From contig NC_088913.1 in the NCBI RefSeq assembly GCF_963576675.1, positions 90,333,001 to 90,397,000 on the forward strand: a DNA stretch of 64,000 bases, given 5' to 3'. Positions within the stretch are counted from its first letter, which is position 1. Every line of letters begins with the position of its first letter. The DNA is from Euphorbia lathyris (Eukaryota; Streptophyta; Magnoliopsida; Malpighiales; Euphorbiaceae). The position numbers were made by a program, and so were the translations under genes. Positions 5,089 to 34,140 of this stretch are shown here, in pieces. The notes under the pieces were generated by a model. The model was not told the origin of the DNA. It saw only the letters and a list, made by a program, of their open reading frames with translations, and did no database searches.

Positions 5089-5313
5089 TGAGAGGGGCAT
5101 TTCGTCCCTATCTTTTAGCGTGGTTTACGGTTTATTTTCGAGCTAAATAAATAAGTTTAATTACGAAAATAATGCGTTTTAATAAAATAATGAAATAAAA
5201 ATAAAAATCGAGCTTTCGGGTAATTTCCTTTATTTTTAGTTGAATTTAGAGAATAAAATGTCAAGTTAACTCGGCTCGTGAGAAGTGTATTTCGCAAGTA
5301 CAAAATACAATAC

Positions 5314-5639
5314 ACGCAGGGCGTATCCCCATCCACGCGGGGCGTGCAGACAAGTGAGTCAGAAATGATTGATCAATCCTGAACCACCACATGGAATCTA
5401 CTCAGCACACGCAGGGCGTGTCAACCACCATGCAGGGCGTATGGTGTTTGTCAAGAAATGATTAACCCAATCCTGAAAGTCAGACTGCATTGTCCCCTAA
5501 GTCAACTATCAATACGCAGGGCGTGTTTTGGGACACGCGGGGCGTACATAGGGTAATTCGAGCAATAAAATACCAGGAGCTCAAACACGCGGGACGTATA
5601 GCAAGACACGCAGGGCGTCTCCTCCCATACGCAGGGCGT
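5314..5639 (+). promoter_or_regulatory. Helically phased ACGCRGGGCGT array upstream of LTR TATA box
   Basis: Nine copies of an 11-bp motif start at 5314, 5335, 5409, 5430, 5514, 5535, 5587, 5608 and 5629. Neighbours within a cluster are exactly 21 bp apart. Gaps between clusters are 74, 84 and 52 bp, close to 7, 8 and 5 turns of 10.5 bp. All are in the same orientation. The last copy is ~79 bp before the TATA box. The position suggests a promoter element bound on one DNA face; this is inference. Confidence 0.75.
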
Positions 5640-5717
5640 GACCTGAGAATTCTGCACCAAATTATGTACCTCCATACTTGTACCTTGTGAAGTTACAATT
5701 CTACCCCTAGCTTGATG

Positions 5718-5727
5718 TATAAATAAG
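5718..5727 (+). promoter_or_regulatory. TATA box, Athila-like 5' LTR
   Basis: TATAAATAAG lies downstream of the phased array and upstream of a CT-rich stretch, as expected for the U3/R boundary. Confidence 0.7.
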
Positions 5728-6743
5728 AGTGACTAGCACTCATTTTGGAGACACCTCTACCACTACCTTCTATCTTCTACTTCTTTGTATAGTTTGAGTT
5801 TGAGATTCAGTTTATGTAATAAGACTCTCCCCTTTCGGGGTTGTTCGTTGATCCCGACATTCCGTCAAAGCTACGTTCCTTCTCCGTTCACCAAGCTCGA
5901 GAGTTCCACCTCCAAGTCCTAAGCGACGGCCTTGAGTCCGGTTGGCTAGTTCCGAGGGCCGATTCTTCCATCTTCGCTTGCTAACTAGCTTGCACTCTTC
6001 CTATGTACTAGGCTCGGTTGTATTCATCATTTTTATTCTCCATATTTATAATATATGATTTGCAATTTCCGTTTCTATACACGTGTTAATGTTTATTACT
6101 TGCTTTGATACTTATAATTGACTATTGTGTAGGGGAACGCGATTTCCGACGCCATTCGGGCTATCTTTAGGGATTCATATAGGTGTTGCCTCATCGGAAG
6201 TGACGCTCTGGAAACCGTAAGAATTGACACACCACGGAACTTACGGGCCCTAGTTTCTGATCCCCAGCATTAGACACGTCTTGACTAGGAATCACGTAGT
6301 CTAAGTACTTCACGGGTCGGTCGAACTACACGTAGTCGTCTTTGCAAGAGTAGATTATTAATCGTATATATTCGGAGTCTTTGTTTGTCATATTTATAAC
6401 TTATCGTCGCCATTGCACTTCGTAGAGTATTCGTTATATAAAATCTGTCTCACCAATAGTTTAGGAGTAGTTGGTAGTCGTCACCAAAACCCTTTAAAGT
6501 ATTCACCGCTTAAATAACGTATAGAACCGAGTCGTTTAATACTTGTAGTTATAAATCTCGTGGATTCGATACCCGGTCTTAACTGGATTATTACTTGATA
6601 CGACGGGGTACACTTGCCCCTAAGTAGTCGTGACGTCTAGTGAATTTAGAGCATTTATAAAGATCAAATCCATAGTCCCGTAGCTCACTCATATTACACC
6701 AACATCCGTAAACACACACCTAGACTGCACGCTATCAAGTTTT

Positions 6744-6761
6744 TGGCGCCGTTGCTGGGGA
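6744..6761 (+). promoter_or_regulatory. Primer binding site, Athila-like element
   Basis: TGGCGCCGTTGCTGGGGA begins six bases after the LTR end. It differs by about one base from the tRNA-Asp type PBS usual in Athila/Tat elements. Confidence 0.85.
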
Positions 6762-6914
6762 TTTATAATTTCTTGCAATATTAGACAAAAACGTTTTATT
6801 GTTAGTTTAAGCATTTGTAAATTTTATTTTCTCTTTTTGTGAATAATTTATTTCGTTACTAATGATTTGTTTCATGGTAGGATACTTCATAGTCGTCATC
6901 GGTGGGACAACCGC

Positions 6915-7445
6915 ATGGATGACGAACACCCACACTCAACCTCGCAATTCGATGTGATAAATTCTTTGCTTGAAGATATCCATGGAGGTTTATCTAACAC
7001 TGAAACATATTTCAGGGAAATAGGAAATCTATGGGTCAGATTGAAGTCTCCTCTTGATTCCGCCGCGGATGAATCAATTCGAGATTCCAATTCGGTTCGC
7101 CAAAATGGGAAGCTCGAGTTAATTGAGTTTTCTCAAAAGGATCCCCTAAGGAACAAAAGTCGTTTCAGTTGTGAGAAAACGGACATCGATGAGTCGGTTG
7201 TGCGCGGACCCATGGAAATAAATCCAAAGCTAGAAGAGTCGGAGGTTCCTTCTACGTCGGAACATTTCGCTCTTTTTGAACTACCGAAGGAGTCAAAAAG
7301 GGAGCAAACTAAACTCTTCGATAATTTCTGTAAATATAGCTTTTGGTTTTTGTTAAATTTCTTTGAAGCTAACAATCCGTTTTGTAGGTACGGATTGTTT
7401 ATTCAAGAATTTGGATATCTTACGCGATTAGAGGCATTCACCTAG
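6915..7445 (+). CDS. Unrecognised 176-aa ORF of the Athila-like element
   Basis: The frame is open from 6867, but the first ATG is at 6915, which I take as the start. It lies ~155 bp downstream of the PBS, where gag normally begins, so it may be the remnant of a gag N-terminus. The protein is acidic and polar (many Glu, Ser, Asp) with no zinc knuckle or capsid motif that I can see. The last ~40 residues are aromatic-rich (around SFWFLLNFFEANNPF), which may reflect run-on into non-coding DNA. The next 240 bp carry no ORF. Function unknown; moderate doubt that it is translated. Confidence 0.4.
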   Translation: MDDEHPHSTSQFDVINSLLEDIHGGLSNTETYFREIGNLWVRLKSPLDSAADESIRDSNSVRQNGKLELIEFSQKDPLRNKSRFSCEKTDIDESVVRGPMEINPKLEESEVPSTSEHFALFELPKESKREQTKLFDNFCKYSFWFLLNFFEANNPFCRYGLFIQEFGYLTRLEAFT

Positions 7446-7683
7446 GAGGGGAAAAAGTCGAGCTACTCCGACTCTAAACATAGCATCGGTTTGAATTTCT
7501 CAAACCACTTGTTTATATATATCTAAACCATTTTCGACTTATTTGCACTCTTTCTTTATTTTTACGTGTGACGTTTTTCTCGTGTCTTGTTATATTGGTA
7601 CTATTTTGTATTTTATTTTATTTTTATTTTTATCTTTTCTCAAAAATTAAAAGAAAAACAAATCCCTTTAGAAATCCAAATAT

Positions 7684-8294
7684 ACGCGGGGCGTATACAC
7701 CCGTACGCCCCGCGTGTTCCGGGCTCTGCTCTTTTTCGTAGCAAAAATTGCAGAGGACGCGGGGCGTCCCTACTCCATGCCCTGCGTGTTTCCCTTTTCG
7801 GCAAAGAATAAAAGGACACGTGTCAGAGGACGCAGGGCGTCCCTTCCTACACGCCCCGCGTATCCTGGGGAGCTGCGAAATGCAGATTTCCCATGGCAAC
7901 TTTTCCTCTTTCCTCTCCCATCAATCACCTCTTCCCCAAAAATCTTTCCCACTTCTCCACTCCACCTCCCTTTCTCTCCAATCACATCATAACCTTTTCA
8001 AATCCACAATAAATTTATCTTAATTACTTTCTTAATCACTCATTAAAATAATAAAAATATTAAATACACCATTAAAACCCATAAAGATTTGAAAAGACTC
8101 AAAAATTCAAAAAAAAAATCGAGCATGCACGCGGGACGTACCCCCGAGTACGCCCGCGTCTCCGCCTTCTCCCAGAAAAAATCTAACCAGGAGACTTGAC
8201 ACGCAGGGCGTCCCACACGGTACGCCCCGCGTGTCCAACCAAAATAAAGTCAGGAGGCGGGAGACGCAGGACGTGGCCCCTTCACGCCCCGCGT
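7684..8294 (+). promoter_or_regulatory. Phased inverted GC-motif pairs, upstream cluster
   Basis: Six pairs, each an ACGCRGGGCGT-like motif followed by its inverse ACGCCCYGCGT starting 20-21 bp later. Pair starts: 7684, 7757, 7830, then 8129, 8201, 8264. Steps within runs are 73, 73, 72 and 63 bp. The cluster ends 45 bp before a TATTTAAA box and 140 bp before the ATG of the 422-aa ORF. In RNA each pair could form a stem of ~11 bp with a ~10-nt loop. Confidence 0.75.
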
Positions 8295-8339
8295 GTCCTG
8301 CTTGGGAATCCGAACACTCTTGGATTCCCCCTCTTTTTC

Positions 8340-8433
8340 TATTTAAACTTACCATCCTTTTCCCCTTTCTTCCTCACAAATCACTCTAACCTTCTCCATT
8401 ATCTCTTCATCCTTACTTCCCCCTCATACAACC
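8340..8433 (+). promoter_or_regulatory. Possible internal promoter and leader for the 422-aa ORF
   Basis: TATTTAAAC at 8340 is followed by ~85 bp of CT-rich leader (CCTTTTCCCCTTTCTTCCTC...) and then ATG at 8434. This looks like a plant core promoter plus 5' UTR. A subgenomic transcript would let the ORF be expressed without the full-length RNA. No direct evidence of transcription. Confidence 0.4.
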
Positions 8434-9702
8434 ATGACCCAAAGCAAGCGAACTGAGATTGACCGCCCCCCACGGGCCACTCGTGCTCGCTCCGCTCGTT
8501 CCACCCAAAATCCACCATCTCCCGACCGGGAAGTAACTCCACCCCTCACCCGACAATACCGGGCACCTTTCCACCTTCTTTCCGAGGCTGAAGCCGAGGC
8601 ATATCAAGCCCTCTCCACCAATCAACCCTTGATCCTCTCGTACTTCACCTTGGACATTCTCAAGCATGATAATATCCGTGATGCTTTTGTAGAACGCCTC
8701 CGCACTCTTGGTTTGGAGGACCACTTCTGGGCTCGTCATCATGTGTATCCATCCTTGGTGTTGGAATTTTTCACCACCATGGATTCCAACAATGTCCCGG
8801 GTGCGGCCCTTTTCACCTTCCGTCTATATAACCACCCCTTCTCCATTGACACTCAATGGATCCGCACCCACTTCACCAAACAAACCGAAGAGGGCATCGC
8901 TATTTGGCTGGATGGCGTCTCTGCTAAGGAATTCTGGACCTCCATTACCGGGTCCAACAAATTTGACGTCTCCAACCTCCGACCATCATGCATCCGAAAC
9001 CCCGGCCTCCAACTTCTCCACCGGTTCATCAATTATTATTTCTCGGGGAAATCGGAGGCCGTCAATGTGAACATTCACGACCTACTTGCCCTCTATTGTG
9101 CTGAAAATAAGCTCGCTTACGACTGGTCCTATCTCGTGGAGGTCCACCTCCACGCAATGCCACGGCGGAAGCGGGCTCAACTCGTTTTGGGCCACCTCAT
9201 CACTATCTTCGCCACCTCCACCCTCGGTGCAAACACCTTGAATCACCTCCCAAGCCACGAACCACGGCCGCTAAGTAAAAACGCTTTCAAATCCCTTGGG
9301 CAGCCTACTTCCGATCCGGGAGAGAGTTCGGGGGCAGCCCAACATGCGGAGGCAACCCAATATCAAGGGGATAGTGGTTCGGACTCGGACATGGGGCTTA
9401 ATTTCAGCCCACCACCCAACCATGATTTCAATGACATTTATTCCCGGTTGGGTGCGGTGGAAGCCCAACAACGTCAAGACTGGGCCCATTTCGATTCTCG
9501 ATTCAAGAACCTCAACGCCACCATCACCACTCGCTTCGACACCCTTGAAGCTCACCGCCTCATGGATCACTCAACTTTCACCACCCGTTTTGATGCGCTT
9601 GAGGCGCAACGACGAGAGGATCGGGCCAACTTTGACGCTTTTACCAACACCTTCTTCGCCCACTTCAACATCAATGGCAATCCGCCTCCACCTCAACAAT
9701 AG
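8434..9702 (+). CDS. ATHILA ORF-1-like protein, 422 aa
   Basis: Starts at ATG 8434 after a CT-rich leader and ends TAG 9700-9702, with no internal stop. The N-terminal ~45 residues are basic and Ser/Pro-rich. Residues ~60-280 match the feel of the ATHILA ORF-1 family: a segment ending RLRTLGLEDHFW, then YPSLVLEFFTTM, then FTFRLYNHPFS. The acidic linker (SGSDSDMG) is followed by three tandem ~25-residue units of the form RFDTLEAHRLxDHxxF, predicted alpha-helical and probably coiled coil. In Athila relatives such ORFs are extra, non-pol genes of unknown role; here it is the only sizeable intact gene of the element and lies between two clusters of the phased GC motif. Family assignment is from memory of motif pattern, not a search. 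Confidence 0.65.
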   Translation: MTQSKRTEIDRPPRATRARSARSTQNPPSPDREVTPPLTRQYRAPFHLLSEAEAEAYQALSTNQPLILSYFTLDILKHDNIRDAFVERLRTLGLEDHFWARHHVYPSLVLEFFTTMDSNNVPGAALFTFRLYNHPFSIDTQWIRTHFTKQTEEGIAIWLDGVSAKEFWTSITGSNKFDVSNLRPSCIRNPGLQLLHRFINYYFSGKSEAVNVNIHDLLALYCAENKLAYDWSYLVEVHLHAMPRRKRAQLVLGHLITIFATSTLGANTLNHLPSHEPRPLSKNAFKSLGQPTSDPGESSGAAQHAEATQYQGDSGSDSDMGLNFSPPPNHDFNDIYSRLGAVEAQQRQDWAHFDSRFKNLNATITTRFDTLEAHRLMDHSTFTTRFDALEAQRREDRANFDAFTNTFFAHFNINGNPPPPQQ

Positions 9703-9845
9703 TTCCCTTTCCTTTTTGTTTTTCTTGTGATGTTGTTGTTTTTCTTTTTGTTGTTAATGTACTTTCCGTTTATTTTATTATTTTAGTAATTTCGGTTTGT
9801 GTTTCGTATTGTTTCCCGTTTAATTTTGCTTTTCGTAATAACACG

Positions 9846-10169
9846 ACGCAGGGCGTACCCCATGGCACGCCCCGCTTCCCTTCATTTTTATGCTTAAAAA
9901 CAGTTCAGAAACTCAAACACGCGGGGCGTCCCCTAATTGCGCCCCGCGTATTTGAGTCTCTGCCTAAAAACATCACCAAACATACTGGTTACGCGTGGCG
10001 CCCCTGTGGGCACGCCCCGCGTGTCCCAGTTAATTAAGCAATAATCAGACCAGGAGCAGCAACATGCAGGGCGTCCCCTTTGGTACGCCCTGCGTGTTTC
10101 CGCCTCTGGTCCCAACGTGTTTAAATAAACACCTTTTGCGCAGGGCGCCTCTTCTGGCACGCCCTGCGT
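9846..10169 (+). promoter_or_regulatory. Phased inverted GC-motif pairs, downstream cluster
   Basis: Five pairs start at 9846, 9919, 9991, 10064 and 10138 (steps 73, 72, 73, 74 bp), each with a second inverted motif 20-21 bp on. The layout is the same as at 7684-8294 but sits 3' of the 422-aa ORF. A lone relic (ACGCGGAGGGCC) follows near 10278. Confidence 0.75.
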
Positions 10170-11638
10170 GGGGACCAGCGATCTGGGCCCCCCTTCTTTT
10201 CTAGCCTTCTCTTCATTTTTGCTTTTGTTTTTTTTATTTTCTTTTGCGACGTTTTTGGAATTAACGTCACCTTTAAACACGCGGAGGGCCGTGCAACCCC
10301 GCACTTTCAGTTTGTTTTGCACTAAAAACAAAAACAAAAATCAAATAACATCAAAATAATCAAACAAAATTATTAGCTCATAAATCATTCCGACACACCA
10401 CCTCCCTCGGAAATTAATTAAAGTTCTGTTATTTGTCGTTAAAAATAAAAGTGTTGGAACATAAAGGAATGATTCGATAAAGAAATTTTAGTCTTGGTTC
10501 CGAAGTTAGGGAATTTATGCAAAATGTAGGTTTGTACTAATTAAAAGCATTTGAGTCCTAACCCACGGGTCATCTCCATAATAAAGGTTAAAAAGGCAAT
10601 AAAAACGGGATAGTTGAGAATTTAGAGAAAACTTGATAGTACACAATTTAAACCCGAATCTTTGTGAGGTATTTTTGAGCCTAAAAGAGTTCATACGAGA
10701 ACTCTAATTCTTTCACAATTTTTCGAGAGCTTTGACTTCACTCGACTCATAGAATTTGCATCCAATACCGGGTTAAGTACACTTACTTTTGGTAAAAAAC
10801 GGCAATAGATGATAAACCGAACCCACTTAGGCTAATTTTTCCTAATTGATTTTTCTCGTTTTCATTAAACATTAGGAAACCCCTTCGAGCCTAATAACCC
10901 ATTTTTTGTTAATACCCTTTTATCATTCAACCCCTTTTTCCTCTTGTCCAAATACCGACAAAATCAATTTGCACCCGAATTATCCGAAATAAGTCACGGC
11001 CTTAACAAACGAGCATCAAAAGCCTTCAAAATATTGTTTTTGTGCCTCTATCAAAACAAAGGATACAATAAAAATAAAAAGGCATTCTCAAGCTCCACCC
11101 GAGCAAATTTTGAAGTACATCTTGTAAAATTCACTAAGGTCGAAGAAAAACACGGTGCGATTATAAGTCGATATTTTGGAACTTGAGTTTCTCAAAAAAC
11201 CCACTGAAAAGCCTCCCACATTACAACCCCCCTCCGGTTTCGTTTTTAATATTACCTAAACCATAAAAGTAGGAGGAAAAACCCGGATAAAAATGCAAAT
11301 TCAGCATGATCTCGAGTAAGTGCAAAGAAGAGCGATAAAACACTGACCCACCTAAAATTGAGCGTAAGAGCGAAATCCCTTGGTGGGGTACTATCGGGTT
11401 CTCAAAAGATAATCAACCCCCGTTAATATTGCCTATTAGCCTTAACCATGGAGGTCTCAAACAAGTTTTGTACTCAATTGTTTGCGTAGTTACTTACCGA
11501 AACCTTTGCATAAAACCATTGCTTTGAAACCACGCACTTGGTAAAACCCCGAAGGTTTGTTTCTTAATCATCTCAATCCATTGTCTTTCGATTTCTTTTT
11601 ACTTGAGGACAAGTAAAACTTTAAAGTCCGAGGAGGTT
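10170..11638 (+). other. Athila-like 3' non-coding region and polypurine tract
   Basis: No ORF above 80 codons with support. The last part (ACTTGAGGACAAG at ~11601, then AAAGTCCGAGGAGGT immediately before the 3' LTR) matches the conserved pre-LTR segment and polypurine tract of Athila-type elements. Confidence 0.65.
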
Positions 11639-13287
11639 TGATAGGGGCATTTCGTCCCTATCTTTTAGCGTGGTTTACGGTTTATTTTCGAGCTAAATAA
11701 ATAAGTTTAATTACGAAAATAATGCGTTTTAATAAAATAATGAAATAAAAATAAAAACCGAGCTTTCGGGTAATTTCCTTTATTTTTAGTTGAATTTAGA
11801 GAATAAAATGTCAAGCTAACTCGGCTCGTGAGAAGTGTATTTCGCAGGTACAAAATACAATACACGCAGGGCGTATCCCCATCCACGCGGGGCGTGCAGA
11901 CAAGTGAGTCAGAAATGATTGATCAATCCTGAACCACCACATGGAATCTACTCAGCACATGCAGGGCGTGTCAACCACCACGCAGGGCGTATGGTGTTTG
12001 TCAGGAAATGATTAACCCAATCCTGAAAGTCAGACTGCATTGTCCCCTAAGTCAACTATCAATACGCAGGGCGTGTTTTGGGACACGCGGGGCGTACATA
12101 GGGTAATTCGAGCAATAAAATACCAGGAGCTCAAACACGCGGGGCGTATAGCAAGACACGCAGGGCGTCTCCTCCCATACGCAGGGCGTGACCTAAGAAT
12201 TCTGCACCAAATTATGTACCTCCATACTTGTACCTTGTGAAGTTACAATTCTACCCCTAGCTTGATGTATAAATAAGAGTGACTAGCACTCATTTTGGAG
12301 ACACCTCTACCACTACCTTCTATCTTCTACTTCTTTGTATAGTTTGAGTTTGAGATTCAGTTTATGTAATAAGACTCTCCCCTTTCGGGCTTGTTCGTTG
12401 ATCCCGACATTCCGTCAAAGCTCCGTTCCTTCTCCGTTCACCAAGCTCGAGAGTTCCACCTCCAAGTCCTAAGCGACGGACTTGAGTCCGGTTGGCTAGT
12501 TCCGAGGGCCGATTCTTCCCTCTTCGCTTGCTAACTAGCTTGCACTCTTCCTATGTACTAGGCTCGGTTGTATTCATCATTTTTATTCTCCATATTTATA
12601 ATATATGATTTGTAATTTCCGTTTCTATACACGTGTTAATGTTTATTACTTGCTTTGATACTTATAATTGACTATTGTGTAGGGGAACGCGATTTTCGAC
12701 GCCATTCGGGCTATCTTTAGGGATTCATATAGGTGTTGCCTTACCGGAAGTGACGCTCTGGAAACCGTAGGAATTGACACACCACGAAACTTACGGGCCC
12801 TAGTTTCTGATCCCCATTATTAGACACGCCTTGACTAGGAATCACGTAGTCTAAGTACTTCACGGGTTGGTCGAACTACACGTAGTCGTCTTTGCAAGAG
12901 TAGATTATTAATCATATATATTCGGAGTCTTTGTTTGTCATATTTATAACTTATCGTCGCCATTGCACTTTGTAGAGTATTCGTTATATAAAATCTGTCT
13001 CACCAATAGTTTAGGAGTAGTTGGTAGTCGTCACCAAAACCCTTTAAAGTATTCACCGCTTAAATAACGTATAGAACCGAGTCGTTTAATACTTGTAGTT
13101 ATAAATCCCGTGGATTCGATACCCGGTCTTAACCGGATTATTACTTGATACGATGGGGTACACTTGCCCCTAAGTAGTCGTGACGTCTAGTGAATTTAGA
13201 GCATTTATAAAGATCAAATCCATAGTCCCGTAGCTCACTCATATCACACCAACATCCGTAAACACACACCTAGACTGCACGCTATCA
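11639..13287 (+). repeat. Athila-like 3' LTR
   Basis: 1,649 bp, the same length as the 5' LTR. It carries the same nine-motif array (11864-12189) and TATA box (TATAAATAAG, 12268). Differences from the 5' copy are mostly transitions. Confidence 0.9.
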
Positions 13288-13513: not shown

Positions 13514-13934
13514 TGTAGACACCGAGTCGGAGGACCTGTGACGAAAACCTGAAACAAGACGGTCGAAGCGATTGGTTCCGGAAGTTTTTGAAAAAAATAT
13601 AAAGAATAATAAGCAAAGAAAATTAACGGCAGGGCACGGGTGCTTAGCGGCATCCTGCACGCGGACGACAATGGTCGAACGCCCGCTCGGCGGCACGGGA
13701 CGTGCGCTCGGCGTCCGTCGGACGCATCGCGAGTGGCACGCCCCTGACGTCCGAATAATGCTCGGGTCTAGTGGCACGGTGCGCGCTCTCGTGGGCCATT
13801 GGGCGTGCGCGCCCGGTGGCGCGAAACACGTGTTCGGCGGCCGCGACGTGTGAGCGTTCGACGGCGCGATACGCGCGCTCGGCGGCCGCGGGGTGCGCGT
13901 ACCCGACGGCGTGAGACGCGCCCCGAAGGTCGTC

Positions 13935-14230
13935 GGGCGAGCGCCCAACCACGTCGGGCGAACGCCCAACGAACGTGGGGCGAACACCCAACGATGGTAG
14001 GGCGCAGGCGTCCCAACATTGCGTTGGGCGCTCGCCCAACAATTGTCGGGCGATCGCCCAACGAATGTTGGGCGACCGCCCAACATTGTTGGGCGCTCGC
14101 CCAACGCCGTTGGGCGATCGCCCAACAATTGTTGGGCGATCACCCAACGAATGTTGGGCGGCCGCCCAACATTCCTTGGGCGGCCGCCCAACAACTTTGG
14201 GCGACGCCCAATTTTATTTGGGCGTCGCCC
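13935..14230. promoter_or_regulatory. Array of 14 GGGCGNNCGCCC dyads at ~21-bp spacing
   Basis: Core palindromes start at 13935, 13956, 13978, 14000, 14026, 14048, 14070, 14091, 14112, 14134, 14156, 14178, 14199 and 14220. Steps are 21-22 bp except one of 26. The flanks are mostly GTT...AAC, so many units are 16-18-bp perfect palindromes. The last two form a 14-bp stem with a 6-bp loop. The array stops 23 bp before the TATA box. All six reading frames stay open through it because of the repetition; I do not regard these as genes. Confidence 0.85.
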
Positions 14231-14252
14231 AAAGTTCCGGGACCCGTTTCCC

Positions 14253-14260
14253 TATATAAG
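14253..14260 (+). promoter_or_regulatory. TATA box, Tat 5' LTR
   Basis: TATATAAG (context CCCTATATAAGGGC), conserved at 31771 in the 3' LTR. Defines the U3/R boundary ~740 bp into the LTR. Confidence 0.75.
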
Positions 14261-14940
14261 GGCACGGATCCCAAGGAAAAAAAAGAGGGGGGAGGCTTTT
14301 TGGGAAAAACTTTCTCACTCTAAACATTTTTAGAGAGAGAGAGAGTGGATTTTTTTGAGAAAAATATTTTTTTTTCTCAAAAATTCCAAATTTCCTAAAT
14401 TCAATTTTTACTAAATTTTTATTAATATCGGGAGCTCGCGGTTCGTGGAATCAATCGGCTTCGACTGTCAGATACCGAATCAAAGGTATTATCCGAGGAC
14501 TAGACTCTTTATTTTATTTGTTCTCTCCTTCTATTTATTTTTTTATGCTATAGTTTTTATTCCTTTAGTTATTTATTTATTTTGTCACGTTTTATTTAAT
14601 TAACGTATTTATTTAATTTTCGTTTCGTGTTAAATAAAACTCGGGTTTTGTTTTAAAATAAAAACCTCGTTTTGGGTATCCCAATACGAACCGTGATCCG
14701 ATAAAAAGGTAGTTCGGGTATCGAAAATGTTGTAATTATAAGTTTTTAATTTAAAAGAGGTTTCCAAATAACGTTTTAAAATAAAAACATCGTTTTAGGA
14801 ACTTCCGTTTTCGACTATGATCCATCTTTGGTAGTTCGGAAGTCCAAAACGATTGAATTAGATTTAATTTAAAGCTTTTGAATAAATCTGGAAAATATTG
14901 GAGTGCTGCTGTAATTTGCCAATTCTGTCACTAAATGCTG

Positions 14941-14967
14941 TTTACCGACGGATTTTCCGTCGGTAAA
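14941..14967. repeat. Perfect hairpin in Tat R/U5
   Basis: TTTACCGACGGA, loop TTT, then TCCGTCGGTAAA: a 12-bp perfect stem. It is conserved at 32458-32484 in the 3' LTR. It lies ~690 nt downstream of the TATA box, so it would be in the transcript. Confidence 0.7.
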
Positions 14968-16622
14968 TCTGCCAAAATGTAAAAAATGTCATTTCAGTCC
15001 CTTTTTCTTAACTTTTAGACTTTTAATCCTTAGTATATATATATATAATTATGTAATATATTCTTTTCAAATTGTTTTAAAACTTTAACATATATAATTA
15101 TTTTAGGAGATTGGTATTCCATTTTTATTCTAATTTTTTTTGTATATGTACATATTACTTTCCTTTTTATTATTATTCATTTAAATTACATTAAATTCTA
15201 TTTTAAATGTTATTTACTTAGGAATTTTGGGAGATAATTAGTAGATATTGGGGGATGAAATATAGTCTTTTTGACAATAGGATTATATTAGCTATGTATA
15301 TATATAGTTTTGGGGTATATTTGGGTTATCTTAATTATTGTTAAATAAAATTATTTTGAGTGATAAATGCTATTTTCCTATTTATGAATTTCATTCACTA
15401 TTTTCTTATGTTTAAAGTATAAATATATTATTTTCATTATTCTTTCTTATATATGTATTAGATAGTATATTTTCTTTTACTCTTATTTTATGTCTTTTGG
15501 GCTAAAATGTGTAAATATATATCTATATTATTCTCTTTATTTCTTTTGGTTATTTATAAGTCCATGTTTCAAATGGGCTTCACTTGGAAAAATTAATTTT
15601 TGGACCTAAATGTGTTTATTGATGTAATTATAATAGTTAGAGAGTCCATTAAATAAGTGGGGAAAATGAGTTACAAAAAGAGTGTTTTCAATTAAATTAT
15701 TTAAGCTAATGAGCTTTCTTAAATCTCTAATGTAGATAAATAGAGTCATTTTGGTTGATATTTCAAATCGTTTTCTAAACACCACGTTTTAAAATCTTAG
15801 TCCGTTCCAACGACGGATTAAGCGAACATTGTAATCAAAATCGTTTTCTTTGTTAATAATGGAGATTTTGAATCGCTTTCTTAATGAATTTGTACAAAAT
15901 AAAATTGACTTGTATGTTTAACCACGTTTTCTTATTAAAAGGCTTTTACTTTAACGTTTTCAATCACTCGAGTCGTTCCAACGGCGATTCGGGTAAGCTT
16001 CATCAAACAGGATTTTAAAACGCACCTAAATCGTTCCAACGGCGATTAAAGTGCGAACCATGTAATAAACGTCGTTTTGGGGAAATAAGTTAATGTAGAA
16101 TAGACACACCATATAACATTTAAATACGGTTGTAAATAAATCACTTCTTTCTTCCCTATCTCTGTGTATGTATAAACATAAATGGGTGATTCTTTACTGA
16201 TGTGGCTTTTCAATATCATATGCTCAAAATGGTTTCTAAAAAGAGAAAGAAAAGGGTTTCAAATGAATTTTAAACTTAAAGAAGTATACGATTAGTCCGT
16301 TATCGCCTAACATGCTGAGTAGGAGGTCGGTGGTTCATAACCGGGCGATGTCGGGGTGCCTAGTAGCCTTTCTCCGGAAAGGAGCTAGCCTTCTCGGCTT
16401 GTACCTAAGTTTCCTGAACCCACACCGGTCTCCCGCAAGGGATCGGTGTTCATTTTCCCATTCGTGGGTGGCGACTCTTCCATATCTCCGAGCTCCGGTC
16501 CTGCCGAGCAGCTTGATTCCGCGATTGGTTGCTTTCGGTGCCAATCACCGCTTACGTCGCCATGAGGTTGTCCACCCCCCGGTCCGCCCGGGAGATTAGG
16601 CCGCGGCACCTCGTCTAACAAG

Positions 16623-26397: not shown

Positions 26398-29300
26398 CTA
26401 ATACGGAGGGAAGTCCCAATAGTTCTCAAAATCTCTCAGGTGAGATGCCCGCTCCGCAGATAGTGTCTCCTCGGCAGCACGGGCTCTCTCATCAGAAGCT
26501 CGCGCTCTCTCATCAGAAACCCGTGCTCTCTCATCAGCAGCTAGTACTCTCTCCTCTGCAGCAAGGCGTCTGATCGACTCATCACGCGCCCTCTCCTCGA
26601 CGGCAAGGCGACCCTCAGTCTCCCGTCGCATCACCCCCGACCAGTGGTCGTTCCTCTCTTGATACACATGACCAACTCGGGCATCAGCTTCCCGCACTAG
26701 CTCACTCTGTCTCCGCTCATGGGCATGAAGATCACTCTAAAAAAAAAAAAAAACAAAAACAGATAAGAGGCAGCATAGGCAAAAACATAAATCATACGTA
26801 CATGCATACATTTCACTACACTAAAGTACAGTAATGATACATACCAGGTGGTCGGTGCAGCGCAAGCTGAGGCAATCTCGTAGGAAGCCGGATAGATCCA
26901 CGTAGTCTGTACAGGTCTCCCTAGTGGTCAGTGAAGCGTCCGAGGGATCAAACGGGACCCTCGAGGAGAAGATAAGAGGGGCCGCCTCAAATCCCGCATA
27001 AGGTGTCCCAGACTCGTCATAGCGGATCGTAGCATAATCCCTCCCGTAGCCTGGTATAGGCACGCCTATGGACGATCTCTCCGATCGGGCTGCGCTGGAG
27101 GACTCGCCGATGAAGTAGGGCTGCTCGCGCGCTGGTGTCTGAGTCTGAGTGCCATCAAAAAAATCAGATAAGTGGGCACTCCTCCAAGATCCCTCCTGCA
27201 AAAAAAAACACACAATAAAACCTCCGAGCATATCATGAATAAAATGAAAAGAGGGCAGAATCACTTACCGGAACCTCCTCCTGACCGAAGACTGCCGCGA
27301 CAGCCTCCCTCGAAAACACGTCTGTCACCGGATCTACCTCCATCGCTGTCGCTGGGGCATCCCTCGCGCCCAGTAAAGTAGACAAGTAAGGCTCGCGGCC
27401 CCCAGCGTGAATCCACACCGCTCTACCAACATACCTACGGGTCAGGTCCCGACGAATGACCGATAAAGGCAGGGTCCGCACCGCGAACATAGAGATGGGG
27501 ATCTCACCCGGCGTCCAATGAGCGTCTCTAACCCCGGTAATGCCTCGATCCCCTAGATACCACGCCCGCACGCAGGGGCCGGTGAGCACACACTGCTGCT
27601 CTTGGATCATCGACACGTATGCATACTCAGGGCCGAAGTCGAGGTCATCCCACCTGAACTGAATCTAAAGCAAAATACACAAAGAGAAAGTCAGAAAGGC
27701 TCAAACCAAAATCTGGCACGATGGGGCAAAATCTACCTGACTCAGGGTCAGCGAGTCGATCCGATCCAGAAGCCGCGACACTGTCCGACTCCTCTCAGCG
27801 CTCAAGTCGAAGTCCCTCCATCGAGTAATAAATGGCGGCCTCGGCACTCTCGGTCGAGGTCGAGACCGGCTAGGAAGGATGTGTCTCTCGTATGCCCACA
27901 CCTGCGGTAAAAACAAGGACTAGGAGTGTGAAAAATGCGAAAAAGATAAGACGGATAAGTCAAGAAGGCGTCACGTACCAACAGGGCAAAGGTATAACCG
28001 CCGAAGTCCTTGCGCTTCCGGCAAGTCAGATCCAAGAACTTGTAAAGAAAGGCTAAGCCTGCCCCTGCCCAATCATAAGAAGCCGCTGCATCCAGATCGC
28101 TAAGTGCCTGAATGAGACCTGCGTGTACCTTCCCGCCCTTCGTGCGGAAAATCGTCTCACTCAGAGCATATACTAAGAAACTACGAACCGCCAGGTCGGT
28201 AGCGTCAGTCTCGCAGAAATCGCGTCTACTCAAGAGGCTCGCGGTAGAGACAAACTTCGCCGGAGTAGACTTGGCGCATAGACGAACTCCCGATCCAATC
28301 AAGGTAGCAAGCCTAGCAGGGTCGACCCGGGGTCGCATCATACCAAAGTGGAAAGGGATGGGAGTGTTGCTCCCTCGCAATCCTGTCAACAGTGAAAAAT
28401 CTCGAGTCGAGATGGTCATCTCCCCAAAGGAAAGGTGGAAGGTGTGGGTTGAGTCAACCCACCGCTCGCATAAGGCCCGTAGGCCAAAAGGATCGCATAC
28501 CCCGTTGGTGCGGGGCAGCACTGCAATAAAGGGCTCGAAGCCCAACTCCTGCACACGGGCTCTCGCCGTGGCACCTAGCCTATCATACCATGAGAGAACC
28601 TCGGCGGTGGTCCCCGAAATCTCAATGAACTAAAAAGGAACAAGATAAGAAAATTTAAATACAGCTCCTAAAGCAGGCAATTGAAAAGAACGCGTTAAGA
28701 CTAGGTATTCTTCCATTTTTCTAACCTAGAGACATCTGGTCAGTTAGGACCAATTTTCTGTAAAAAAAATCTCTCATGTAGGGTCCTTCAGTAAGGTTGA
28801 GTCAATTCTTTGATCCACTCTCGTCTACGGCGACGAGGAGCATAGATTAGGTTCTACTATTCACGTGCCTTAGCTAAGTTTTTACTATTCACGTCACTAT
28901 TCATGTTGTCACTATTCACGTTTTTACTATTCACATGCACTATTCATGTTTTTACTATTCACGTCTACTATTCACGTGCATTAGCTAAGTTTTTACTATT
29001 CACGTGCACTATTCATATTTTTACTATTCACGTGCATTAGCTAAGTTTTTACTATTCACGTTTCACTATTCATGTGCACTATTCACGTCTACTGTTCACG
29101 TGCGTTAGCTAAGTTTTACTATTCACGTGTCACTATTCATGTGCACTATTCACGTGCATTAGCTAAGTTTTACTGTTCACGTTTTTACTATTCACGTTGT
29201 CACTATTCACGTTCTACTATTCACGCGCATTAGCTAAGTTTTTACTATTCACGTTGTCACTATTCACGTGTACTATTCACGTGCATTAGTTAAGTTTTTA

Positions 29301-29700
29301 CTATTCCCGTGCACTATTCACGTTTTACTATTCACGTGCACTTTTCACATTTTTACTATTCACATCGTTTTTACTGTCAACATGCATAAATTCGTAGTGT
29401 ACTATTCACATGCATATAACGCGCATTCTTACAAAAACAAACAGGTGTTACGTGTAAATAAAGGAATTCACGTTTTCTAGTTAAAGTCCTCTAAAGCAGC
29501 CTAAGAGTTAACATGCAAATCATGTTCGTATAGGAATGTTAAAGCCTAGAGTTGAAATCAAATAAAAGTGAGAAACCACTTACCTCGTTGCAGTGTGTCC
29601 TGCTCAAGTGTGTCGTAGGGTCGTGGAAGGTATCCACTCTATCCAGGTTTACGTAAACCTCGTCCATGCCTCTGGTACCATCCCATTCGTCTAAATCCAT
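26398..29700 (-). CDS. Spliced antisense plant mobile domain (PMD) protein, 672 aa
   Basis: Read on the minus strand, six exons join in frame: 29700-29584, 28629-27979, 27901-27737, 27664-27269, 27195-26845, 26736-26398 (stop included). All five introns begin GT, end AG and are phase 0. Donors include GAG|GTAAGT and CCG|GTAAGT; acceptors have pyrimidine tracts. Lengths give 39+217+55+132+117+112 residues with no stop. Exons 2-4 carry the plant mobile / aminotransferase-like domain (RWVDSTHTFHLSFGEMTIS, LLTGLRG, LVWAYERH). The C-terminal exon is a charged helix with ADERARVSDERARASDER repeats, probably coiled coil. A TATA box lies ~80 bp upstream. PMD genes are known both as host silencing/meristem genes and as cargo of transposons. 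The role here is unknown. Confidence 0.85.
28855..29375. repeat. TTCACG tandem array inside PMD intron 1
   Basis: Dozens of imperfect copies of ACTATTCACGTG and a longer composite (TTCACGTGCATTAGCTAAG). The array accounts for more than half of the 954-bp first intron. CACGTG is the plant G-box core, but repetition is the simpler explanation. Confidence 0.8.
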
Positions 29701-30139: not shown

Positions 30140-30830
30140 GCCATTTGACTCTCGGTCGCAGACCGAAGTTACTTTTGAGCCATTTGACTCTCGGTCGCAG
30201 ACCGGAGTTGCTTTTGAGCCATTTGACTCACGGTCGCAGACCGGAGTTGCTTTTGAGCCATCAGACTCACGGAGTTGCTTTTGAGCCATCTGACTCACGG
30301 TCGCAGACCGGAGTTGCTTTTGAGCCATCTGACTCACGGTCGCAGACCGGAGTTGCTTTTGAGCCATCTGACTCACGGTCGCAGATCGGAGTTGCTTTTG
30401 AGCCATCTGACTCATGGTCTCAGACCGGAGTTGCTTTTGAGCCATATTTACCTAAGATCGTAGACTAGGGTAGCGGTTTAGCCATTATCCCCACAGTCGT
30501 AAATCAGGGTAGCTGTTTAGCCATTATCCCCGTAATCTTGAAATAGGGTAGCAGTTTAGCCATTATCCCCGTAATCTTGAAATAGGGTAGCTTTTTAGCT
30601 ATTATCCCCGTGATCTTGAAATAGGGTAGCTGTTTAGCCATTATCCCCGCGATCTTGAAATAGGGTAACGGTTTAGCCATTATCCCCACAGTCGTAAATT
30701 AGGGTAGCTGTTTAGCCATTATCCCCGTAATCTTTAAATAGGGTAGCTGTTTAGCCATTATCCCCGCGGTCATAAACTAGGGTAGCTATTTAGCCATTAT
30801 CCCCACGATCGCGAACTAGGGTGCAGCCCG
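30140..30830. repeat. 39-bp minisatellite, two subfamilies, ~18 units
   Basis: 30140-30440 has eight units of the form GCCATCTGACTCACGGTCGC + AGACCGGAGTTGCTTTTGA, one shortened to 28 bp. 30480-30830 has nine units of GCCATTATCCCCGTAATCTT + GAAATAGGGTAGCTGTTTA. Both are 39 bp and start GCCAT. A unit at ~30441 is intermediate, so this is one array that diverged. As 39 is a multiple of 3, frames stay open on both strands; they are not genes. Confidence 0.85.
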
Positions 30831-31009: not shown

Positions 31010-34000
31010 TGTAGACACCGAGTCGGAGGACCTGTGACGAAAACCTAAAACAAGACGGTCGAAGCGATTGGTTCCGGAAGTTTTTGAAAAAAATATAAAG
31101 AATAATAAGCAAAGAAAATTAACGGCAGGGCACGGGTGCTTAGCGGCATCCTGCACGCGGACGACAATGGTCGAACGCCCGCTCGGCGGCACGGGACGTG
31201 CGCTCGGCGTCCGTCGGACGCATCGCGAGTGGCACGCCCCTGACGTCCGAATAATGCCCGGGTCTGGTGGCACGGTGCGTGCTCTCGTGGGCCATTGGGC
31301 GTGCGCGCCCGGTGGCGCGAAGCACGCGTTCGGCGGTCGCGACGTGTGAGCGTTCGACGGCGCGATACGCGCGCTCGGCGGCCGCGGGGTGCGCGTGTCC
31401 GACGGCGCGAGGCGCGTCCCGAAGGTCGTCGGGCGAGCGCCCAACCACGTCGGGCGAACGCCCAACGAACGTGGGGCGAACGCCCAACGATGGTAGGGCG
31501 CGGGCGCCCCAACGTTGCGTTGGGCGCTCGCCCAACGCCGTTGGGCGATCGCCCAACAATTGTTGGGCGATCGCCCAACAAATGTTGGGCGACCGCCCAA
31601 CATTGTTGGGCGCTCGCCCAACGAATGTTGGGCGGCCGCCCAACAATCTTGGGCGGTAGCCCAACTTAGTGTTGGGCGGCCGCCCAACATGCCTTGGGCG
31701 GCCGCCCAACAACTTTGGGCGACGCCCAATTTTATTTGGGCGTCGCCCAAAGTTCCGGGACCCGTTTTCCTATATAAGGGCACGGATCCCAAGGAAAAAA
31801 AAAGAGGGGGGGAGGCTTTTTGGGGAAAACTTTCTCACTCTAAACATTTTTAGAGAGAGAGAGTGGATTTTTTTGAGAAAAATATTTTTTTTTCTCAAAA
31901 ATTCCAAATTTCCTAAGTTCAATTTTTACTAAATTTTTATTAATATCGGGAGCTCGCGGTTCGTGGAATCAATCGGCTTCGACTGTCAGATACCGAATCA
32001 AAGGTATTATCCGAGGACTAGACTCTTTATTTTATTTGTTCTCTCCTTCTATTTATTTTTTTATGCTATAGTTTTTATTCCTTTAGTTATTTATTTATTT
32101 TGTCACGTTTTATTTAATTAACGTATTTATTTAATTTTCGTTTCGTGTTAAATAAAACTCGGGTTTTGTTTTAAAATAAAAACCTCGTTTTGGATATCCC
32201 AATACGAACCGTGATCCGATAAAAAGGTAGTTCGGGTATCGAAAATGTTGTAATTATAAGTTTTTAATTTAAAAGAGGTTTCCAAATAACGTTTTAAAAT
32301 AAAAACATCGTTTTAGGAACTTCCGTTTTCGACTATGATCCATCTTTGGTAGTTCGGAAGTCCAAAATGATTGAATTAGATTTAATTTAAAGCTTTTGAA
32401 TAAATCTGGAAAATATTGGAGTGCTGCTGTAATTTGCCAATTCTGTCACTAAATGCTGTTTACCGACGGATTTTCCGTCGGTAAATCTGCCAAAATGTAA
32501 AAAATGTCATTTCAGTCCCTTTTTCTTAACTTTTAGACTTTTAATCCTTAGTATATATATATATATAATTATGTAATATATTCTTTTCAAATTGTTTTAA
32601 AACTTTAACATATATAATTATTTTAGGAGATTGGTATTCCATTTTTATTCTAATTTTTTTGTATATGTACATATTACTTTCCTTTTTATTATTATTCATT
32701 TAAATTACATTAAATTCTATTTTAAATGTTATTTACTTAGGAATTTTGGGAGATAATTAGTAGATAGTGGGGGATGAACATATAGTCTTTTTGACAATAG
32801 GATTATATTAGCTATGTATATATATAGTTTTGGGGTATATTTGGGTTATCTTAATTATTGTTAAATAAAATTATTTTGAGTGATAAATGCTATTTTCCTA
32901 TTTATGAATTTCATTCACTATTTTCTTATGTTTAAAGTATAAATATATTATTTTCATTATTCTTTCTTATATATGTATTAGATAGTATATTTTCTTTTAC
33001 TCTTATTTTATGTCTTTTGGGCTAAAATGTGTAAATATATATCTATATTATTCTCTTTATTTTTTTTGGTTATTTATAAGTCCATGTTTCAAATGGGCTT
33101 CACTTGGAAAAATTAATTTTTGGGCCTAAATGTGTTTATTGATGTAATTATAATAGTTAGAGAGTCCATTAAATAAGTGGGGAAAATGAGTCACAAAAAG
33201 AGTGTTTTCAATTAAATTATTTAAGCTAATGAGCTTTCTTAAATCTCTAATGTAGATAAATAGAGTCATTTTGGTTGATATTTCAAATCGTTTTCTAAAC
33301 ACCACGTTTTAAAACCTTAGTCCGTTCCAACGACGGATTAAGCGAACATTGTAATCAAAATCGTTTTCTTTGTTAATAATGGAGATTTTGAATCGCTTTC
33401 TTAATGAATTTGTACAAAATAAAATTGACTTGTATGTTTAACCACGCTTTCTTATTAAAAGGCTTTTACTTTAACGTTTTCAATCACTCGAGTCGTTCCA
33501 ACGGCGTTTCGGGTAAGCTTCATCAAACGGGGTTTTAAAACGCACCTAAATCGTTCCAACGGCGATTAAGGTGCGAACCATGTAATAAACGTCGTTTTGG
33601 GGAAATAAGTTAATGTAGAATAGACACACCACATAACATTTAAATACGGTTGTAAATAAATCACTTCTTTCTTCCCTCTCTCTGTGTATGTATAAACATA
33701 AATGGGTGATTCTTTACTGATGTGGCTTTTCAATATCATATGCTCAAAATGGTTTCCAAAAAGAGAAAGAAAAGGGTTTCAAATGAATTTTAAACTTAAA
33801 GAAGTATACGATTAGTCCGTTATCGCCTAACATGCTGAGTAGGAGGCCGGTGGTTCATAACCGGGCGATGTCGGGGTGCCTAGTAGCCTTTCTCCGGAAA
33901 GAAGCTAGCCTTCTCGGCTCGTACCTAAGTTTCCCGAACCCACACCGGTCTCCCGCAAGGGATCGGTGTTCATTTTCCCATTCGTGGGTGGCGACTCTTC

Positions 34001-34140
34001 CATATCTCCGAGCTCCGGTCCTGCCGAGCAGCTTGATTCCGCGATTGGTTGCTTTCGGTGCCAATCACCGCTTACGTCGCCATGAGGTTGTCTACCCCCC
34101 GGTCCGCCCGGGAGATTAGGCCGCGGCACTTCGTCTAACA
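31010..34140 (+). repeat. Tat element 3' LTR
   Basis: 3,131 bp, near-identical to the 5' LTR except in the palindrome array (31431-31748), which has 15 units in a different order. TATA box at 31771, hairpin at 32458-32484. Ends CGTCTAACA, followed by the TSD GCGGT. Confidence 0.9.

Follow-up and report, generated by a model that had tools for sequence, protein, structure and literature searches.

Why should a single long terminal repeat (LTR) retrotransposon carry some 40 copies of one 11-bp motif, ACGCRGGGCGT, at recurrent distances? The question is raised by an element at positions 5089-13287 of a 64,000-nucleotide stretch of the Euphorbia lathyris genome (assembly GCF_963576675.1, contig NC_088913.1, positions 90,333,001 to 90,397,000 of the forward strand; hereafter 'the window'). 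The element is Athila-like and includes an open reading frame (ORF) of the ATHILA ORF-1 family (ORF1). We consider that the motif arrays are probably a cis-regulatory module, of the enhancer type, for a dimeric DNA-binding protein, placed both in the LTR and before ORF1.

Motif copies, spacing and selection

Motif matches were counted on both strands, against a background of 15 Markov-shuffled versions of the element for each mismatch threshold. The element contains 28 exact copies, 37 with up to one mismatch and 39 with up to two; the shuffled elements gave means of 0, 0.13 and 1.6, and the rest of the window 0, 0 and 9. All 37 window sites at up to one mismatch fall in this element, and a fortieth site, at 8150, has one base deleted. 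The copies are grouped as follows:

5314..5639, + strand: U3 array of the 5' LTR; nine direct motif copies, gaps 21, 74, 21, 84, 21, 52, 21, 21
7684..7861, + strand: cluster A; three inverted motif pairs, gaps of 52 and 53 between pairs
8129..8294, + strand: cluster B; three inverted pairs, with a 1-bp deletion in one arm
9846..10169, + strand: cluster C; five inverted pairs (many relatives have three)
11864..12189, + strand: U3 array of the 3' LTR; nine direct copies, from the motif scan

The copies of the 5' LTR start at 5314, 5335, 5409, 5430, 5514, 5535, 5587, 5608 and 5629, and nine matching starts in the 3' LTR begin at 11864. The 11 interior inverted pairs start at 7684, 7757, 7830, 8129, 8201, 8264, 9846, 9919, 9991, 10064 and 10138, with 20-21 bp within pairs and 72-74 bp between pair starts inside clusters (one exception, of 63 bp). 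An initial annotation had reported about 40 copies, nine per LTR and 11 interior pairs, with these spacings and with 74, 84 and 52 bp in the LTR, and the scan bears it out. The span that it gave, 5314-10169, covers a real array and omits the rest of the element.

The conserved core, RCGC-N3-GCGY, is a dyad in which orientation is carried by the three central bases only; direct and inverted pairs therefore differ by just these three bases. The distinction drawn earlier between direct LTR copies and inverted interior copies is correct as described, but the contrast is small.

In the window, each of the four arrays tested (5' LTR and clusters A, B and C) is best fitted by a period of 10.35-10.5 bp. 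With random unit gaps of 40-90 bp as the null, phasing gives p values of 0.004 for the LTR, 0.072 for A, 0.028 for B and 0.011 for C. For a typical relative, L029, the values are 0.0005 (LTR), 0.034 (B) and 0.67 (A). Helical phasing, as first claimed, thus holds for most arrays and fails for cluster A of L029: it is common, not universal.

The relatives are drawn from twenty 10-kb stretches around genome matches, all on one contig (C1); several loci are truncated at the stretch ends or are without ORF1. Nineteen of the 20 have the LTR array (the exception is L027), 15 have cluster A, 11 cluster B and 17 cluster C (L027 is omitted from the cluster classes, and one C cluster, in L028, is probably a truncated B). 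Identity to the window element is mostly 67-69% in ORF1, 70-78% in U3 and 78-85% in the remaining LTR. The usual U3 gaps in relatives are 21, 72-74, 21, 84, 21, 52, 20, 52, 21, 74 and 21, and L033 has an extra unit. Many relatives have a gap of 58-60 ahead of the third cluster A pair, and among the 12 elements that carry both A and B, the A-to-B distance varies between 273 and 358 bp.

Selection on the motif was assessed in the seven elements with two LTR arrays of at least six sites; other loci were excluded. Between the two LTRs of one element, that is, after insertion, CpG sites differ at 44/417 positions in the motif, 34/360 downstream and 6/56 in the spacers. The comparison between elements, restricted to sites with the same base in the two LTRs, gives 89/986 in the motif, 285/1053 downstream and 100/198 in the spacers, or 9% in the motif against 27-51% elsewhere. 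These between-element counts pool all pairings of the same seven elements and are not independent; over the 105 sets of disjoint element pairs the Fisher p has a median of 1.9e-5 and a maximum of 0.016. Defining the motif slots on elements outside the test led to the same outcome (in four test elements, 22/223 for the motif, 101/309 downstream and 27/50 for the spacers). In the LTR region upstream of the array, 25/110 CpG and 139/1129 other sites differ between the LTRs of one element; this region is omitted from the reading, as L020 and L033 misalign there.

The motif CpGs vary little between lineages yet decay after insertion, and the motif is therefore selected while the family replicates. 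This protection during family replication, and not in inserted copies, is the strongest evidence that we have. It supports the earlier suggestion of a selected motif, which is what protein binding would lead one to expect. The CpG decay also described does occur, after insertion, but the motif CpGs are protected from it between lineages.

The spacers provide information on the origin of the arrays. When compared in register, spacers B1, B2, C1, L1 and L2 resemble one another in all 10 of their pairings, with identities of 0.33-0.54 and z of 3.0-5.8. A1 resembles C2 (z 4.5), and z is -0.6 to 1.8 in the 10 remaining pairings. This likeness between slots traces the arrays back to an old 73-bp unit, whose duplication is their likely origin. 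Indels of at least 3 bp have lengths near whole helical turns in 10/11 cases within the array, compared with 8/31 downstream (Fisher p 2.5e-4) and 2/6 upstream; the tally was made by eye, excludes L019, L024 and L033, and counts as in phase those within 0.15 turn of whole 10.5-bp turns, a threshold chosen post hoc.

A purely neutral history, with the array a decaying remnant of the duplicated unit, would suit the likeness of the spacers, the extra unit of L033 and the indels near whole turns, which copy slippage would also yield. We judge it very unlikely: motif CpGs are far better retained between lineages than those of spacers and flanks, a difference not seen after insertion, and as a full account neutral duplication is refuted by the selection test. 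The initial annotation had set recent tandem duplication of a roughly 73-bp unit, with no conservation across copies, against its own proposal; the duplication is present as an old event, and the motif is kept between element lineages.

An alternative proposed at the outset is a hairpin array, in which the inverted pairs of the genomic RNA fold up for packaging or a structural role. The interior pairs are indeed inverted, with loops of 9-10 nucleotides, and the sequences flanking the 11 window pairs show in-register complementarity (p 0.0017, 0.0001 and 0.0003 at 6, 8 and 10 nucleotides, 0.054 at 4), but a duplex-energy test on the flanks is not significant (p 0.16) and the LTR copies are direct. 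We compared the arms of 147 inverted pairs, found with distances restricted to 19-22. One-sided changes dominate (at position 5, A/G 27, G/A 5 and A/A 3); position 11 leans to joint change (C/C 12). Covariation of the arms scores 0.123 in cluster A, equal to the shuffled value of 0.123, and 0.045 in cluster B against 0.041, with 99/500 shuffles as high. Unpaired changes are fixed at single pairs in 9/12 and 11/12 B clusters and in 11/16 A clusters. With no compensatory change between arms, an RNA hairpin of the motif arms was rejected, and a hairpin array appears highly improbable.

A hairpin just 3' of cluster A and the first A spacer do covary, with a score matched by 0/500 shuffles; double-sided pair changes were equalled by 13/500 shuffles and further pair types by 311/500. 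It is a 10-bp inverted repeat with a 5-nucleotide loop at 7862-7896, imperfect in the window and also found after cluster A in L016-L035, where some copies maintain pairing via changes on both sides. We take this hairpin and the flank complementarity as a separate feature.

Promoters, ORF1 and the element

The remaining features of the element are:

5089..6737, + strand: 5' LTR; 98.2% identity to 11639-13287, termini TGAGAG...CTATCA, flank CTCTC
5718..5725, + strand: LTR TATA box, TATAAATA; 78 bp downstream of the last motif
6744..6760, + strand: primer binding site, TGGCGCCGTTGCTGGGG; pattern-matched in 9/21 loci including the window, several fetched loci ending before the site
6843..7445, + strand: open frame of 200 amino acids with no match in Pfam; in several other copies its place is taken by a gag gene
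8340..8347, + strand: TATA-like box, TATTTAAA; 45 bp downstream of cluster B and upstream of ORF1
8434..9702, + strand: ORF1; 422 amino acids, uninterrupted, ATHILA ORF-1 family (PF03078)
11609..11638, + strand: purine-rich stretch adjoining the 3' LTR, polypurine tract by position
11639..13287, + strand: 3' LTR, pairing with the 5' LTR

The position of the arrays with respect to TATA boxes recurs among the relatives. TATAAATA lies downstream of 25 of the 27 LTR arrays, 24 times at 78-81 bp and once at 88; it is absent within 200 bp of the two L033 arrays. A TATA-like box is found 41-47 bp downstream of 11/12 B clusters, and within 150 bp of 0/16 A and 0/19 C clusters. In 8/16 copies a CACGTG (G-box) was seen by eye before the third pair of cluster A.

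The array probably serves as an upstream activating or enhancer sequence that the retrotransposon employs in at least two places: in U3, upstream of the LTR TATA box, and in the interior, upstream of a TATA-like box predicted to drive ORF1. Each RCGC-N3-GCGY dyad would be bound by a protein dimer. Two helical turns separate the sites of a pair, and from one pair to the next there are about seven turns (in the LTR, up to ten); at such distances neighbouring dimers would sit on almost the same face of the helix, where cooperative binding would be possible. The arrays grew by duplication of the old 73-bp unit.

The CpG-rich core, and a unit of 73 bp that is half of 147 bp, might instead point to chromatin, the motif positioning nucleosomes or recruiting or repelling methylation and not acting as an activator site. 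Such a function is improbable: the array stretch has a CpG observed/expected ratio of 0.89, no higher than the 1.19 of the remaining LTR, and the positions of the sites are tied to the TATA boxes.

The paired LTRs identify an LTR retrotransposon. They show 29 differences over 1649 bp (1.8%), 23 of them transitions, and this divergence suggests insertion less than 1 million years ago at the plant substitution rate assumed here. The element is flanked by CTCTC, but the 3' flank is a CT microsatellite, which makes this weak evidence of a target-site duplication. The primer site TGGCGCCGTTGCTGGGG is one that we take to be of the tRNA-Asp type.

ORF1 matches PF03078 with E 3.1e-7 and 30 bits (cut-off 20.2), and its C-terminus has coiled-coil-like heptads by eye. 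The ratio of non-synonymous to synonymous change (dN/dS) is 0.16-0.33 among six copies, and the synonymous divergence of the window copy from the five others is 1.1-1.4. A search of ORF1 against approximately 5.8 billion protein sequences produced 5733 candidates, none at E 0.001; the Protein Data Bank (PDB) contained no relative up to E 1, and a single-sequence fold was uninformative (predicted local distance difference test, pLDDT, 38).

No pol gene was found: a Pfam scan of the seven + strand frames of at least 100 amino acids in the interior of the window element matched ORF1 only, and no pol frame was noticed by eye within the element in nine relatives. A copia-type reverse transcriptase fragment in L022 is located outside its LTR. 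Among the relatives, L018 has a gag gene (Retrotrans_gag, E 1.5e-21; a Ty3_capsid match is below cut-off), gag-like frames were seen by eye in L022, L028, L031, L033 and L034, and L026 and L032, without an ORF1 match, retain cluster A. The reverse transcriptase by which membership of the Athila clade is judged is not found in the window element, and classification on that basis is impossible. The element is Athila-like and non-autonomous, as first annotated, by its ATHILA ORF-1 match and the failure to find pol.

The 1.4 kb between cluster C and the 3' LTR (10170-11636) is mostly 78-87% identical in relatives, above ORF1. It contains no + strand stop-to-stop frame of more than 105 amino acids in the window.

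The window also includes a second, larger gypsy-type element, with LTRs at 13514-16620 and 31010-34140. Its LTR arrays (13931-14232 and 31427-31750) consist of a different CpG dyad, TTGGGCG-N2-CGCCCAA, in 9 and 10 copies by pattern, at a spacing of 21-22 plus 44 and 70. A TATATAA follows downstream at 14253 and 31771, so that here too a motif array precedes a TATA box. The same element also holds tandemly repeated CACTATTCACGT-like units and tandemly repeated 39-bp units (28851-29363 and 30140-30822).

The motif in other families

Pairs of the motif were counted over the 1.02-Gb assembly. There are 1550 inverted pairs at gaps of 8-11, compared with 0 for the reversed-pattern control, and 26 at gaps of 12-42. 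Of the latter, 22 measure 41-43 bp between their starts and enclose a third copy, three are simple pairs with a gap of 12, and one, at 47 bp, encloses a third copy that is altered. A single repeated string accounts for sixteen of the 26 (in one case with one base changed), and twelve of these sixteen form six pairs 4.4-4.8 kb apart.

These wider pairs led to further loci. L036 and L037 represent another, unrelated LTR element, with the primer site TGGTATCAGAGC, presumably of the initiator-Met type. Its BLAST matches to the 21 Athila-like loci (six rows) are all inside the array, with none outside. Eleven motifs are spaced 21, 51, 20, 21, 51, 21, 52, 21, 21 and 21 (phasing p for L036, 0.053); ten of them are on the strand opposite its promoter, and a TATA box lies approximately 195 bp downstream. 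L038 is a relative of this element. L037 also has a 519-amino-acid frame at 441-1998 with internal repeats and a weak aspartic protease match below cut-off. A third promoter-like locus, L039, not shown to be an LTR, has 12 motifs spaced 20, 52, 21, 20, 21, 52, 21, 19, 21, 52 and 21 and a TATA box approximately 137 bp downstream.

How the families came to share the array is informed by the spacers. The L039 array, spacers included, matches Athila-like LTR arrays (108 bp at 70%, 79 bp at 73%), and outside the array there is a single 40-bp match, to window sequence upstream of the element. Its three spacers resemble Athila-like LTR spacers in register at 0.43-0.49 (0/2000 permutations). For the four spacers of L038, two of them identical, the values are 0.27-0.35 over five similar slots, with p from 0.0015 to 0.25, and the best local spacer match of L036 is borderline, being equalled by 1/40 shuffles. 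Either the module has passed between families or the spacers hold further functional positions.

Several observations weigh against a regulatory module. Because L039 shares both array and spacer sequence with the Athila-like LTRs, the shared spacing may reflect common descent of the module and not convergence. L036, L038 and L039 were also chosen from matches with pair gaps of 12-42, which favours 21-bp runs, although their 51-52 bp gaps were not part of the selection criterion. Cluster C sits 3' of ORF1, and within 150 bp of it no TATA box was found; cluster A of the typical relative L029 is out of phase. Finally, LTR spacer lengths are off mode in 23/91 cases (4/35 for 52-bp, 14/37 for 72-74-bp and 5/19 for 84-bp spacers; ten unalignable element-slots were left out), on the whole no steadier than control segments bounded by conserved columns in the same LTR (24%, 33% and 38%; L019 and L024 left out). 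The initial annotation had taken conserved spacing with decaying sequence to suggest selection; as proof of selection on spacing within this family, the argument does not survive the comparison, except perhaps for the 52-bp spacers, which alone look steadier than control segments (4/35 against 24%).

If the arrays are a binding module, the simplest candidate for the binder is a host factor, since the site is also used by an unrelated family. Within the binding-module explanation, a special case makes ORF1 the binder: its protein would recognise the arrays of its own LTR and promoter, for anti-silencing or activation, as VANC does for VANDAL transposons, and other families would have borrowed the sites. 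The arrays bracket ORF1, and ORF1 is kept by selection and uninterrupted in a window copy without recognisable gag. Passages of PMC5735166 describe VANC motifs as tandemly repeated, with the VANC6 motif also in an unrelated transposon. We nevertheless regard binding by ORF1 as unlikely. Pfam reveals no DNA-binding domain in ORF1, neither the fold nor the PDB search provides support, and 3.5 kb of the unrelated family is without a significant ORF1 match (best E 0.084), which makes a host factor the simpler choice. It is somewhat more doubtful that ORF1 might be a sequence-specific transactivator or anti-silencing factor whose 73-bp array was passed to other LTR families that exploit ORF1 in trans.

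Comparison with known systems

The En/Spm (CACTA) transposons carry subterminal arrays of an approximately 12-bp CpG motif, in direct and inverted copies, bound by the multimeric TnpA. Unlike those of the window element, these arrays sit at DNA transposon ends, without an LTR promoter. The VANC targets of VANDAL are the nearest example with a known binder. As far as described in passages of PMC5735166 and PMC10398659, they too are short motifs repeated in the non-coding regions of the transposon, in arrays that change by tandem repetition, and are also present in an unrelated element; unlike the window element, VANDALs are DNA transposons, and motif and protein are unrelated. Among plant gypsy elements, the relevant passages of PMC7264820 and PMC11963269 report an additional ORF with its own promoter in Grande (gene23) and an additional ORF together with tandem repeats in Retand. 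In contrast to ORF1, these ORFs are antisense and downstream of pol, and no comparable motif array is seen in those passages.

The closest parallel is provided by the repeated motifs (RM boxes) of the Sireviruses (Ty1/copia), which contradict the earlier statement that no element with this layout had been described. According to passages of Bousios et al. 2010 (PMC2829016), these are palindromic CpG-containing motifs that occur 8-32 times in each element and form a cluster in the LTR, a short way upstream of a conserved TATA box; extra copies precede the envelope-like gene where one is present (77/79 extra copies before the gene), and the motifs are termed a Sirevirus-specific feature. The window element likewise has a palindromic motif in at least eight copies upstream of the LTR TATA box, and extra copies before an additional gene (A and B precede ORF1). 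It is itself no Sirevirus and differs in being an Athila-like gypsy type, by ATHILA ORF-1 and the gag of a relative, in its core (ACGC-N3-GCGT here, CGG-CCG there), in the third cluster, C, after the gene, and in a 21/52-bp spacing rule not part of the Sirevirus description in those passages. Selection on the motif has been tested here, and the motif is common to other families of the same genome, both of which go beyond the Sirevirus account.

No gypsy counterpart of the Sirevirus array turned up in searches of the open-licence PMC literature. What is new here is the Ty3/gypsy Athila-like host, the spacing rule, the selection test and the sharing between families. The selection test separates functional motifs from duplication remnants. 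A binder, if found, would tell how families switch on together and whether Athila ORF1 is the switch; should it be ORF1, this would be a retrotransposon counterpart of VANDAL and VANC with a transferable enhancer module. The Sirevirus type of motif array is thereby extended to gypsy-type elements, and unrelated retrotransposons of one genome are seen to use a single array grammar.

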